Assembly (NCBI GenBank): GCA_017465625.1
Contig: JAFTVV010000024.1
Location: 1 to 48,977 of the forward strand
DNA: 48,977 bases
Reading direction: 5' to 3'
Source: Oscillospiraceae bacterium
GTDB taxonomy: Bacteria > Bacillota > Clostridia > Oscillospirales > Oscillospiraceae
In this document: positions 3,966 through 41,194 of the stretch, piece after piece
Layout: the number at the start of each line of letters is the position of its first letter
How positions within the stretch are numbered: the stretch's first letter is position 1
Program-made: the position numbers and the translations under genes
Notes under the pieces: model-generated
Told to the model about the DNA's origin: nothing
Databases searched by the model: none
The model's input: the letters and a program-made list of their open reading frames with translations, nothing else

Positions 3966-4214
3966 CCAGAGGTTAAAGAAGCCCCAAAGACAAGCAACGC
4001 GACCCCGAAGTGTATGCGGATACTCAAGAGGGTTGCGCCCAGCAGTAAGTCAAAACGCCTTGCATAGCAAGGCAATTTAGAAAATATTACTTTTGGGACG
4101 GGAGACCCGTCCCCTACGCTTTTAATAGGATGTATTTTTTATGTTTTGACGGTTTGGGGGTTCTTTGACACTCTGAAAAACCTGCCATCGACCGAAGGCA
4201 GGTTTTTGTTCGCA
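3966..4214. other. Gene-free spacer with hairpins
   Basis: I see no gene here. The spacer holds a small palindrome of the type GGGACGGGAGACCCGTCCC (4095-4113), followed by CCTACG, and a terminator-like hairpin flanked by A and T runs (arms 4176-4186 and 4197-4207). That hairpin abuts the hairpin array beginning at 4215. Confidence 0.5.
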
Positions 4215-4317
4215 GCGATATAAATCCCTTGCGGGATTTGCGATATGCCGCTGTGCGGCGCGATATATCTTCGATGCGATATGCTTGCGCGCGTGGGGGA
4301 ACTTATATCATATCGCA
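4215..4317 (+). repeat. GCGATAT-linked hairpin array, copy 1
   Basis: Short hairpins (AATCCC/GGGATT, GCCGC/GCGGC, ATC-TTC-GAT) are separated by linkers of the form GCGATAT or CGATATAT. The last linker appears in reverse orientation (ATATCGC, near 4311). The segment matches the reverse complement of part of 8722-8891 over about 100 bp with indels in the hairpin arms and loops, so both are copies of one element. Confidence 0.75.
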
Positions 4318-4368
4318 AAGCGGACACCCCGGGAGGAGTGCCCTTACAAATTCTTTCGATGGGTTTCA

Positions 4369-5215: not shown

Positions 5216-5538
5216 GGGGACACGGGTCTCAATGTCATTGGGTTTAGGATGTCATTGCGAGCACCCTGAGCGAAGCCGAAGGGTGCGTGGCAATCCGTAA
5301 TCCAAAGGCTCCCTTGTGTAAAGGGTAAGCGAAGCGCAGTCGCGGTAGTGAATGACAGTCCGGTGGACTGTCAGAGCCGCGACCGGGCTCGCCTCAGCGA
5401 GCTGTCACGCGAACAGCGTGACTGAGGGATTGTTACGCGGTGCTTTACACCGCAAGAAAACGGATTCCCACGGCTGCTTCACAGCCTCGGAATAACAAGG
5501 GTTTTTGAACTCAATGACATTGACACGGGTCTGTCCCC
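5216..5538. mobile_element. Composite nested repeat element with imperfect terminal inverted repeats
   Basis: The ends form an inverted pair: GGGGA...TCAATGTCATTG at 5216-5240, and its inverse at 5512-5538. Inside is a head-to-head pair of GTCATT(G/C)CGAG-type palindromic repeats (5251-5300 and about 5460-5495), and between those a third element (5306-5429) that is related to 40670-40791. No transposase is present. The structure looks like successive insertion of non-autonomous elements between the HAD gene and surE. No gene is seen in this 358-base gap. Confidence 0.65.
5306..5429 (+). repeat. Long palindromic repeat, type A copy 1
   Basis: The element begins with GGCTCCCTTG and ends with GACTGAGGGA. 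The interior carries the shared block AAGCGAAGCGCAGTCGCGG and several nested hairpins. It aligns along its length with 40670-40791, with differing hairpin stems that keep base-pairing (compensatory differences). Confidence 0.75.
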
Positions 5539-8721: not shown

Positions 8722-8891
8722 GCGATATGTTTTTCTTTGCAAAACGCGATATATTTGTCTTGCGGCAAATGCGATATATGGCTTCGCCATGCGATATGAT
8801 ATAAATCCCCTCACGCCCGCAGGCATATCGCATCGAAGATATATCGCGCCGCAAAGCGGCATATCGAAAATCCATTTATGGATTTATATCG
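8722..8891 (-). repeat. GCGATAT-linked hairpin array, copy 2
   Basis: Hairpins such as ATGGC-TTC-GCCAT, ATTTG/CAAAT, GCCGC/GCGGC and AAATCCAT/ATGGATTT are spaced by linkers. Linkers read GCGATAT in the left half and ATATCGC in the right half, converging near 8805-8820. The right half is homologous, inverted, to 4215-4317. Confidence 0.78.
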
Positions 8892-8903
8892 TTGCAACAA
8901 CAC

Positions 8904-16585: not shown

Positions 16586-16715
16586 GTCATTCCGAGGAGC
16601 CGCAGGCGACGTGGGAATCCGTTTTCTTGCGGTGCGAAGCACCGCGCCGCCTTCGGCGGCAGGGGATACGGATTGCCACGCACCCTTCGGCTTCGCTCAG
16701 GGTGCTCGCAATGAC
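16586..16715. repeat. Head-to-head pair of GTCATT-class palindromic repeats
   Basis: GTCATTCCGAG...GTGGGAATCCG on the left faces its inverted relative (CGGATTGCCACG...CTCGCAATGAC) on the right. A short hairpin-rich core (GCGGTGCGAAGCACCGC and GCCGCCTTCGGCGGC) lies between them. The same arrangement occurs at 19684-19782 and, split by another element, at 5251-5495. Confidence 0.8.
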
Positions 16716-16735
16716 ATACGTTTGTAGTAAAGTTT

Positions 16736-19683: not shown

Positions 19684-19782
19684 GTCATTCCGAGGCTGCG
19701 CAGCAGCCGTGGGAATCCGTCTTCAAATGGGATTGCGGATTGCCACGCACCCTTCGCCTTTGCTCAGGGTGCTCGCAATGAC
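19684..19782. repeat. Head-to-head pair of GTCATT-class palindromic repeats
   Basis: GTCATTCCGAGG...GTGGGAATCCG is opposed to GCGGATTGCCACG...CTCGCAATGAC, with a 20-base core. An isolated GTCATTCCG fragment lies just before it (about 19671). It separates the U32 gene from the maf operon. Confidence 0.78.
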
Positions 19783-19829
19783 ATCCTAAACTTCATGACA
19801 CTGTCATAATATGATCCGAGGATAGCTTT

Positions 19830-24730: not shown

Positions 24731-25654
24731 TTATTCTTTTGTGCCTTCCACAATGCCGTTTGCCAGGCCTACAAGACCCTGCATCTGACTGGGAATGATG
24801 ATTTTGGTAGCCTTGCCGTCTGCAACCTTTTCCATTGCTTCCACGGCCTTCAGCTTAATAACCTGATCGTTGGGTGCTTTTTCGTTCAGCATCTGCATAG
24901 AGTCAGCCAGTGCCTGCTGAACGGTACGGATTGCCTGCGCTTCACCGTCTGCCTTCAAAATAGCAGCCTGCTTTTCAGCCTCTGCCTTCAAAATGGCGGC
25001 TTGCTTTTCTGCGTCAGCACGCAAAATGGCGGATTCCTTTTCGCCTTCTGCAATCAAAATGGCGGATTTTTTCTGACCTTCTGCCTGCAAAATTGCCTGA
25101 CGACGGTCACGCTCTGCCTTCATCTGCTTTTCCATGGAGCTTTGAATATCTTGAGGCGGCAAAATGTTTTTCAGCTCCACACGGTTGACCTTGATGCCCC
25201 AGGGGTCGGTGGCCTCGTCCAAAATAGCGCGCATTTTGGTGTTGATCACGTCACGGGAGGTCAGGGTCTGATCCAGTTCCAGATCGCCGATGATGTTACG
25301 CAATGTGGTGGCGGTGAGGGTTTCCATAGCGGTCATGGGCTGTTCCACACCGTAGCAATACAGCTTGGGGTCGGTAATCTGGAAATAAACCACCGTATCA
25401 ATCTGCATAGTAACATTATCCTTGGTAATAACCGGCTGAGGGGGATAGTCGTGCACCTGCTCTTTGAGATTCACACGACGTGCCACACGGTCGATAAAAG
25501 GTACTTTAAAATGCAGGCCAACGCCCCACACCTCACGGAATGCGCCCAGCCGTTCAATCACGTAGGCTTTGGACTGCTGAACCACCTGAATATTGGAAAT
25601 GATGATCAAAAATACAATGGCGATAAAGCCAATCAATACATATATACCGGACAT
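24731..25654 (-). CDS. SPFH/Band 7 membrane protein, QmcA/stomatin-like
   Basis: The 307-residue protein has an N-terminal membrane helix (IYVLIGFIAIVFLIIISNIQ), an SPFH domain starting VQQSKAYVIERLGAF and containing GLHFKVPFID and the TDPWGIKVNRVELKNI segment. A long coiled coil and a short C-terminal oligomerisation region follow. SPFH proteins form large ring- or cage-like membrane scaffolds that organise microdomains and modulate membrane proteases. The coiled coil contains five near-identical 11-residue units. It follows an NfeD-type gene by 12 nt; SPFH/NfeD pairs are a conserved functional partnership. Confidence 0.93.
   Translation of the reverse strand: MSGIYVLIGFIAIVFLIIISNIQVVQQSKAYVIERLGAFREVWGVGLHFKVPFIDRVARRVNLKEQVHDYPPQPVITKDNVTMQIDTVVYFQITDPKLYCYGVEQPMTAMETLTATTLRNIIGDLELDQTLTSRDVINTKMRAILDEATDPWGIKVNRVELKNILPPQDIQSSMEKQMKAERDRRQAILQAEGQKKSAILIAEGEKESAILRADAEKQAAILKAEAEKQAAILKADGEAQAIRTVQQALADSMQMLNEKAPNDQVIKLKAVEAMEKVADGKATKIIIPSQMQGLVGLANGIVEGTKE
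24940..25105 (-). repeat. 33-bp tandem repeats encoding hendecads in the SPFH protein
   Basis: Five consecutive 11-residue units of the pattern A-(E/D)-(G/A)-E-K-x-(S/A)-A-I-L-(K/R/I) are visible both in protein and DNA. This matches the hendecad coiled coil known in QmcA-like SPFH proteins. High DNA identity between units makes copy-number slippage possible. Confidence 0.8.
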
Positions 25655-40502: not shown

Positions 40503-40583
40503 CAATTCTTTGAGGCGGTCTATATCCTGCGGACAGGGTGGTGGCTAATAGCCGCCCCTCCTTTTCCGAACCTTTCGGTTTTT

Positions 40584-40639
40584 CTCTCCCTCCGTCAAAA
40601 ATCAGAGATTTTTGCCACCTCCCTCGTCAGAGGGAGGCT
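40584..40639 (-). repeat. Short palindromic repeat, type B copy 1
   Basis: Read on the minus strand it starts GCCTCCCTCTGACGAGGGAG, contains AAAAATCTCTGATTTTT, and ends GACGGAGGGAGAG. It is identical to 41139-41194 over almost its whole length. Its ends match those of type A repeats (40670-40791), with a different interior. Confidence 0.85.
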
Positions 40640-40669
40640 TTAGTCTATAAAACGGCAGCTTTTCCCATT

Positions 40670-40791
40670 GGCTCCCTCTGACGAGGGTAAGCGAAGCGCA
40701 GTCGCGGTAGTGAATGGCTGTCCGGGTGACAGCCAGAGCCGCGACCGGGCCGCCCGCAGGCGGCTGTCAGCGAAGCTGACTGAGGGAGAGA
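40670..40791 (+). repeat. Long palindromic repeat, type A copy 2
   Basis: Starts GGCTCCCTCTGACGAGGG, ends CTGACTGAGGGAGAGA, with nested hairpins such as GGCTGTCC/GGACAGCC-like arms and GCCGCC/GGCGGC between. It aligns with 5306-5429. The final codons and stop of the DUF559 gene (minus strand) lie within it. Confidence 0.85.
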
Positions 40792-41135
40792 TTTTTCACT
40801 GTCAAATCAATGTATTCGCATACGCCGGAAAAATTACGGTCAATATCCAAATTGCAGATTCTGATCACCGTCAAATTCATACACTCTAAGTCTTTTGTGC
40901 GGAGATTATCCTTCTGTGTCTGTTCCGGCGTGTAATGCCCACCCCCGTCCAACTCAACGACTAAGCCGATCTTCGCACAATAGAAATCCACGATGTAATT
41001 TCCTATGGCTTTTTGTCTTTGAAAACGCATTGGGTAATTCCGAAGAAACTCATACCACAGTTTTCGTTCCCATGGGGTCATATTTTTTCTTAACGCCTTT
41101 GCTAAAGGAATGTTGTCCTTATTGTATTCTTTCAA
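40767..41135 (-). CDS. DUF559 endonuclease-like protein embedded in repeats
   Basis: The 122-residue protein matches DUF559, a very-short-patch-repair (Vsr)/PD-(D/E)xK-like nuclease fold. Features are MTPWERKLWYEFLR, RFQRQKAIGNYIVDFYC and LVVELDGGGHYTPEQTQKDNLR; the Asp of IVDFYC and the Glu/Asp of VELDG are the expected metal ligands. No ATG is usable: the frame starts at TTG codons, and the GGAGGG SD 8 nt before the TTG at 41135 lies inside the adjacent type B repeat, while the stop codon lies inside the type A repeat. DUF559 proteins are often solitary; here the coding region fills exactly the space between two related repeats. Confidence 0.88.
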   Translation of the reverse strand: MKEYNKDNIPLAKALRKNMTPWERKLWYEFLRNYPMRFQRQKAIGNYIVDFYCAKIGLVVELDGGGHYTPEQTQKDNLRTKDLECMNLTVIRICNLDIDRNFSGVCEYIDLTVKNLSLSQLR

Positions 41136-41138
41136 TTT

Positions 41139-41194
41139 CTCTCCCTCCGTCAAAAATCAGAGATTTTTGCCACCTCCCTCGTCAGAGGGAGGCT
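41139..41194 (-). repeat. Short palindromic repeat, type B copy 2
   Basis: Near-identical to 40584-40639 and in the same orientation. Its 3' end on the minus strand provides the SD of the DUF559 gene. Confidence 0.88.

Follow-up and report, generated by a model that had tools for sequence, protein, structure and literature searches.

A small DUF559 nuclease gene in the genome of an Oscillospiraceae bacterium lies between two inverted copies of a structured repeat, each of which joins hairpins to a mirror-coded purine segment, and comparable arrangements recur at DUF559 genes in many other bacteria. As far as sequence comparison reaches, this association of nuclease and repeat is real, general and tightly structured. 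We consider it fairly probable that the locus represents a selfish cassette of one gene, working in the manner of the REP-RAYT system yet unrelated to it, a reading in which we infer both cleavage and mobility. The pairing points to a type of mobile element that has gone unrecognized and offers orphan repeats a likely partner enzyme; joining orphan triplex repeats with a function-unknown nuclease family gives each a testable role, and, if the proposal is true, the end signal of this mobile element would be a DNA triple helix. The stretch of DNA analyzed here, referred to as the window, comprises 48,977 nucleotides and represents one of the 47 contigs (C26) of an assembly (G000) of 1.70 Mb that is 80% complete.

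The gene occupies positions 40767-41135 on the minus strand, starts with TTG, and encodes a 122 aa PD-(D/E)xK nuclease of the DUF559 family (PF04480) ending in NLSLSQLR (E 7.1e-26, 90.7 bits versus the curated cut-off of 20.6). Another TTG, at 41153, also lies in the open frame, but homologues instead begin at the residue of 41135. Residues D50, E61, D63 and H67, at the D, ExD and H core positions, are invariant in 46 aligned DUF559 rows and are presumably catalytic, and the solved relative 3hrl is recovered with E 3e-12. The Pfam matches of the window protein up to E 1 comprise DUF559 and two weaker families, with no Y1_Tnp and no transposase family among them. A profile search of the assembly returned this gene as the sole DUF559 match in the genome, which holds 33 unit matches with the covariance model R1. 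PADLOC gave two weak matches (mREase_II, 2e-7, and DpdF, 0.003), and Rfam yielded zero families at the gathering threshold across the window. The gene flanking the window cassette was matched in 14 of 61 genus genomes, and weakly outside its own, so that no empty site was found for the window's copy.

An earlier note on this DNA had placed the gene between a type A and a type B repeat, one supplying the Shine-Dalgarno sequence and the other the stop, and this description holds. The 5' terminal unit, of type B (41136-41194, minus strand), has its third segment towards the gene and consists of hairpin 1, CCTCCCTC TGAC GAGGGAGG (41173-41192, minus), a linker with hairpin 2, TGGCAAAAATCTCTGATTTTTGAC (41149-41172, minus), and a mirror-coded third segment, GGAGGGAG (41141-41148, minus), which shows 0 mismatches to the triplex code and doubles as the Shine-Dalgarno sequence; the 3' end of the unit thus provides the GGAGGGAGAGAAA that precedes the TTG. 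The 3' terminal unit, of type A (40668-40796, plus strand), is oriented to the gene and supplies its final codons and stop; its hairpin 1 is shortened and followed by approximately 72 extra nt (40689-40760), hairpin 2 is GTCAGCGAAGCTGAC (40766-40780, plus), and the tail is TGAGGGAG, with T in place of the G of type B (40781-40788, plus). A second type B unit outside the cassette (40581-40639, minus) is identical to the 5' unit over 59 of 59 nt, and a solitary type A unit at 5307-5429 (plus) matches the terminal one with 78% identity between 5322-5434 and 40684-40796; both copies had been reported in the earlier note.

That note had further regarded types A and B each as an element in which the interior replaced the gene, and here our results depart from it, because each corresponds to a single terminal unit, whereas the gene-less form is an inverted pair of units approximately 60-120 bp apart. 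A and B alike contain hairpin 1, hairpin 2 and the purine tail, and the outer base pair, which is flipped between them (CCTCCC.. in B versus GCTCCC.. in A), is accompanied by a switch in the tail, from GGAGGGAG to TGAGGGAG. By this shared layout, A and B represent the same kind of unit and, opposed across the gene, have the appearance of a single cassette's two ends; we discarded the idea that type A is an element of its own, since it equals the unit plus the approximately 72 extra nt. Both type B units in the window conform to the purine-motif code with 0 mismatches, and the shortened type A hairpin was missed by the same scan. The mirror-coded third segment and the spread to other phyla described below were absent from the earlier note.

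Across the collected loci, the order of the unit is hairpin 1, with a pyrimidine 5' arm and a purine 3' arm, a linker, and a purine segment. The clostridial linker is itself a hairpin and is highly variable (159 distinct linkers among 199 units), and it is here, at hairpin 2, that the strand would turn. The pairing read in the units is that of the purine-motif antiparallel triple helix, in which T is tolerated on C-G. Among units matching at no fewer than 6 of 8 positions, the purine segment mirrors the purine arm, with G opposite G at 689 of 745 positions, A or T opposite A at 307 of 309, and T opposite C at 45 of 48; the exceptions are A opposite 54 of the 745 G positions and all 10 T positions, which have C opposite, outside the code. 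Each arm fits its own tail at 6.45 of 8 positions on average, compared to 5.29 (sd 0.06) for permuted tails, with 0 of 500 permutations as high, and when each of the 48 arm types was represented by one unit, the fit was 6.04 compared to 5.12 permuted (sd 0.11; maximum of 2000 permutations 5.54), in a test whose scores are depressed by the inclusion of some wrong-strand hairpins. Three other codes for this segment, namely direct repeat, Watson-Crick and swapped, were each rejected as fitting worse: exact fits among flank hairpins numbered 141 for the mirror code versus 33, 22 and 4, respectively. The units resemble the intrastrand-triplex motifs of the BoxC/PIT type and not simple palindromes.

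Third segments concentrate at DUF559 genes. Within 220 bp on either side, an exact third segment was found at 78 of 121 DUF559 genes versus 22 of 321 control ORFs, the latter as would be expected of dispersed copies of the unit; exact segments on both sides were found at 39 of 121 versus 1 of 321, and, at no more than one mismatch on either side, the counts were 117 of 121 versus 36 of 321 (8 of 129 rows, which were misread, partial or duplicate, are omitted). Conversely, 43 of the 121 DUF559 genes had no exact third segment in this range, and 4 had none at no more than one mismatch. Among 120 genes (9 of 129 rows omitted here and in the class counts), the nearest upstream unit is turned towards the gene in 88 and away from it in 10, with no unit in 22; for the nearest downstream unit, the corresponding counts are 66, 17 and 37. 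In 58 of 120 genes, the start codon lies 3-24 nt downstream of where the third segment begins, most commonly 4 nt beyond its end; downstream, 77 of 120 genes have a unit obeying the code at no more than one mismatch, and in 25 of these 77 the stop codon lies inside that unit.

The earlier note had proposed counting how often DUF559 genes are bounded by such repeats. DUF559 genes were present in 23 of 60 genomes (that of the window and 59 relatives), and a contig scan, from which we used the best 80 of 566 confirmed stretches, added loci mostly from Clostridia, along with Schwartzia, Anaerovibrio and one Anaerolineaceae. We aligned the 250 bp preceding the domain to the reverse-complemented 250 bp that follow it and took a score of at least 18 as the threshold. 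Inverted flanks were thereby detected at 72 of 122 DUF559 genes versus 6 of 370 control ORFs, which were of at least 100 aa and came from loci of at least 5 kb (94 rows), that is, from part of the DUF559 set's own loci; the 122 scored rows, of 129 (short flanks dropped), include one duplicated element, a few partial or misread rows and six rows still flagged for orientation. With one row per cluster at 80% DNA identity, 51 of 98 genes retained inverted flanks. The finding that the note had named as adverse, DUF559 homologues free of repeats, applies to part of the set: 50 of 122 genes score under the threshold, many of which by eye have units and others none, and the 4 of 121 mentioned above are devoid of a third segment at no more than one mismatch.

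The two ends of an element match, and the type of unit tracks the lineage of the nuclease and not the host. Both ends belong to the same class in 60 of 67 classable elements, compared to 18.0 under permutation (sd 3.2; maximum of 2000 permutations 29). A DUF559 tree was built from 120 rows; its columns are few and many of its forks are open, and on it the upstream unit's class requires 19 changes versus 49.4 when shuffled, with 0 of 200 shuffles as low. Within the genus of the window alone (25 classed elements), unit class requires 9 changes versus 13.4 shuffled (lowest of 300, 10), whereas the label of the host genome on the same tree requires 19 versus 19.0.

Unit numbers follow the presence of a matching nuclease, as the earlier note had anticipated. 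The covariance model R2 (CTTCCCC class) was run on 37 genus genomes, many of them incomplete MAGs, with scoring limited to 150 candidates per genome, which makes the unit counts lower bounds. The eight with a class-matched DUF559 gene (one of them, G032, assigned by tree position, its own label missing) had at least 150, 146, 109, 149, 142, 22, 14 and 91 units (median 125.5), compared to a median of 1 (range 0-49) in 21 genomes without a DUF559 match (Mann-Whitney p 1.1e-4) and a median of 21 in the 8 genomes with DUF559 of other or unclear class, a group that includes G017, in which a CTTCCCC unit adjoins a partial gene, and G025, whose match is weak and partial. The R1 model (CTCCCTT/CTCCCTC) gave a weaker contrast, with a median of 33 (3-97, n=5) in class-matched genomes versus 6 (0-87, n=21) in those with none (p 0.04; any DUF559 versus none, p 0.009), and G005, which carries a DUF559 gene of the R1 class, had 3 R1 units. 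On these counts, units are more numerous where the matching DUF559 is present, less markedly so for R1. The converse that the note had set against its own proposal, repeats in genomes without the gene, was seen in several unit-rich genomes with no DUF559 match (R2: G021 49, G028 42, G033 41, G022 31; R1: G013 87, G022 66, G008 61); units thus persist where no nuclease is detected, in genomes of which some are rated 99% complete (G021, G013).

Gene-less inverted pairs with approximately 60-120 bp between the units were found, by reading, in ten stretches of G002 and twenty of G032. The twenty pairs of G032 (L321-L340) are near-identical, and most lie within a further shared palindrome, so that the composite may be what moves; we dropped the interpretation of these copies as a clean burst because the palindrome extends into their flanks.

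Empty sites, which the earlier note had suggested looking for, were found at loci of related genomes. At the first of two intergenic sites of the genus, matched in 60 of 61 genomes, we read the best 30 loci and, by reading, tallied 4 DUF559 cassettes, 4 sets of gene-less triplex units plus one single unit, 6 RAYT-like genes with their own repeats and 7 loci of no more than 60 bp, the remainder being other sequence; four loci, one of them a DUF559 locus, had no right flank. Thus, a single intergenic site is empty, RAYT-filled or DUF559-filled depending on the species. The six RAYT-like genes (L221, L233, L238, L243, L244, L245) are accompanied by palindromes that, by reading, differ in sequence from the DUF559 units, and the one of the six that was tested (L238) belongs to PF01797 (Y1_Tnp). 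At the second site, matched in 59 of 61 genomes, the 30 loci read comprised 2 DUF559 cassettes, 1 gene-less pair, 1 TGTC-type pair, 4 with other repeats and 22 of no more than 60 bp, and the cassette there has a stop codon on one side and the following ribosome-binding site on the other. A gene block, presumably dnaN, recF and gyrB, holds additional filled and empty pairs. Several junctions of this block carry DUF559 cassettes (L097, L098, L102, L108, L083, L079, L125, L100), in a search that favored relatives of one such protein. No target-site duplication was recognized by eye at the filled and empty pairs. In one species (L249, G030:C32), the DUF559 cassette contains an in-frame stop and the copy at that site in a sister species is open, as would be expected of decay in place.

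The arrangement extends beyond these hosts. A tblastn search of plasmid records, some of them chromosome-sized, gave 38 matches, of which 22, from Pseudomonadota, Cyanobacteriota and Deinococcota, were analyzed, the other 16 being near-duplicates, partial matches and some others. A third segment within 220 bp was exact at 15 of the 22 loci, present at no more than one mismatch at 21 and present on both sides at no more than one mismatch at 12, compared to 1.1% (exact) and 8.2% (no more than one mismatch) for shuffled flanks (440 shuffles). Linkers at these loci are frequently short (TTAG, CTAGG, CCG); at L352, one of the 22, the DUF559 domain is part of a long protein, and some cassettes occur between genes of one pathway (sufB|sufC, paaD|paaZ). 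In E. coli, ycjD is annotated as DUF559, and its region is covered to at least 80% in 3321 of 5426 genomes; a PF04480 search of a 14-genome control set left E. coli unmatched, though E. coli genomes carry ycjD. The ycjD gene of strain TUM23335 is 354 nt long, the length given for K-12 in a published account (PMC12817139), and has a decayed hairpin at its stop. Past that stop, at a distance of 174 bp and before fabI, lies a motif with an exact third segment, CCCCTCTGGGGAGAGGGTTAGGGTGAGGGG. We regard this motif as BoxC-like, partly on what we take to be the BoxC consensus. The other basis for the label is the T-T-A second loop of the E. coli motif, as described in PMC4666352. We rejected a simple empty ycjD site in four E. 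coli strains without ycjD, where efflux genes are found instead; eefRABCD and ycjD alternate at one place in E. coli, according to PMC12817139.

Several known systems share part of this design. According to Holder 2015 (PMC4666352), intrastrand triplex motifs are abundant in bacteria, the E. coli motif forms a stable triplex in vitro, and the 23 copies of BoxC/PIT in E. coli include five inverted pairs. Like the units described here, these motifs combine a purine-arm hairpin with a mirror-coded third segment, are intergenic and occur in inverted pairs; unlike them, they are described as orphans, whereas the present motifs bracket DUF559 genes and, in clostridia, have a second hairpin as the linker. 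For the E. coli motif, the same authors state that an activity conferring genetic mobility was not found in its vicinity. The comparison with REP-RAYT drawn in the earlier note stands with respect to the coupling and the general resemblance and falls with respect to A and B as gene-replaced forms. The likeness to REP/REPIN-RAYT consists in one small gene within inverted structured repeats, gene-less pairs and type-specific pairing, features that on the RAYT side are in part general background; coupling of repeat type to enzyme lineage, as known for REP-RAYT, was likewise found for the DUF559 units. For the rest, the comparison draws on PMC3733652, in which GTAG repeats go with RAYT and CGTC repeats are without a dedicated transposase. 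RAYT is an HUH Y1 transposase with GTAG-tagged repeats, whereas the DUF559 cassette encodes a PD-(D/E)xK nuclease and its units have a triplex-type third segment; GTAG is absent from both strands of the type B unit, and one GTAG lies within the 72 extra nt of type A. Vsr belongs to the same superfamily, YcjD having been assigned to PD-(D/E)xK with a profile that finds Vsr (PMC1189080), but Vsr repairs T-G mismatches. MITEs and insertion sequences share inverted ends, here present as terminal inverted repeats at 72 of 122 genes, and gene-less derivatives, but the DUF559 gene matches no transposase family and no target duplication was recognized. In a mostly open-access literature, with bioRxiv outside its scope, none of the papers naming DUF559 was about repeats by its title or abstract opening, and none of the matches listed linked the family to repeats.

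The selfish cassette that we favor would work as follows. A Vsr-like PD-(D/E)xK nuclease is placed between two inverted units, each of which can be folded on paper as an intrastrand purine-motif triplex, with hairpin 1 as the duplex, hairpin 2 as the turn and the mirror-coded purine segment as the third strand. When single-stranded, at the replication fork or during transcription, the unit would fold, the cognate DUF559 protein would recognize the folded unit and nick or cut at its base, and repair would then copy the cassette, or a gene-less pair of units, elsewhere. We favor cut-and-repair over transesterification as the more likely route, given that no transposase is encoded by the gene. 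As the third segment is often the ribosome-binding site and the downstream unit can provide the stop, the cassette would be self-sufficient wherever it lands. On this view, the gene-less members of the class would include BoxC/PIT of E. coli and comparable repeats elsewhere.

Weighed against this proposal, it seems unlikely that DUF559 is a Vsr-like housekeeping mismatch endonuclease whose repeats merely serve as handy ribosome-binding and terminator signals. VsrA, a DUF559 protein of Caulobacter, is reported to cause a DNA damage response in mutants without a cytosine methyltransferase, which the authors of that study (PMC12907096) read as mismatch repair, and the third segment is indeed usable as a Shine-Dalgarno sequence, with the start at 3-24 nt in 58 of 120 genes. 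A housekeeping role nevertheless leaves unexplained the matched inverted ends, the gene-less pairs, the amplification of units and the patchy presence at one site, and downstream units keep the code (77 of 120 at no more than one mismatch) where a ribosome-binding role for the gene is impossible, whereas other ORFs in the same loci mostly have no such flanks. We judge similarly improbable a trans-acting role without spreading, in which DUF559 resolves or cuts folded units against instability, or kills cells that lose the locus. Intrastrand triplex motifs accompany genome instability in E. coli, as stated in PMC4666352, and the PD-(D/E)xK fold suits a structure-specific nuclease (PMC1189080), but such a guardian needs neither matched inverted brackets nor many unrelated sites.

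That a different enzyme, for instance a RAYT transposase, moves the units and DUF559 is a trapped passenger appears to us distinctly unlikely. This reading would accord with the RAYT-like genes that occupy, with their own repeats, the same intergenic site in sister species, and with the several genomes that keep units without a detected DUF559; yet unit type follows the DUF559 lineage across hosts, the RAYT repeats at the shared site are, by reading, of different sequence, and the pairing of DUF559 with units recurs in three other phyla. With regard to the folding step of the favored proposal, Holder 2015 reports that neither double-stranded DNA nor an in vivo footprint showed a stable triplex (PMC4666352).

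A broader generalization, to which we give an even chance, is that DUF559 and intrastrand-triplex repeats constitute one widespread class of mobile elements whose nuclease recognizes a three-stranded DNA fold as its end signal, in which BoxC/PIT of E. coli and its counterparts in Cyanobacteria, Deinococci and Proteobacteria would be gene-less and ycjD a resident nuclease; GIY-YIG would likewise serve CGTC repeats, and every major class of palindromic repeats in bacteria would then have a small nuclease of its own.

A second pairing of nuclease and repeat was observed alongside the first, in which inverted palindromes tagged TGTC/CGTC bracket small GIY-YIG genes. It is found in the window at 5249-5299, 16667-16717 and 19729-19784 and elsewhere in the same assembly at C20:3334-3555 (L203), and its arms in this genome are identical over 39 nt. 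Among YVYIL-type GIY-YIG loci, 3 of 5 score at least 19 (L204 and L191 failed), versus 0 of 25 others above 12. The pairing is also visible by eye at L098, L102 and L108 and in 2 of 2 plasmid loci examined, and L199, L200, L353 and L354 were grouped with it. The sufB|sufC junction holds a DUF559 cassette in one species (L349, Sphingomonas) and a GIY-YIG cassette in another (L354, Azospirillum). Our literature search found no paper linking GIY-YIG to extragenic palindromic repeats. Two further repeats were recorded in the window: inverted arms of 111 nt at 4212-4322 and 8785-8895, 86% complementary and separated by 4.5 kb, and four 33-nt tandem direct repeats at 24933-25064 with 67-82% identity to the first copy, perhaps part of a repeat protein.
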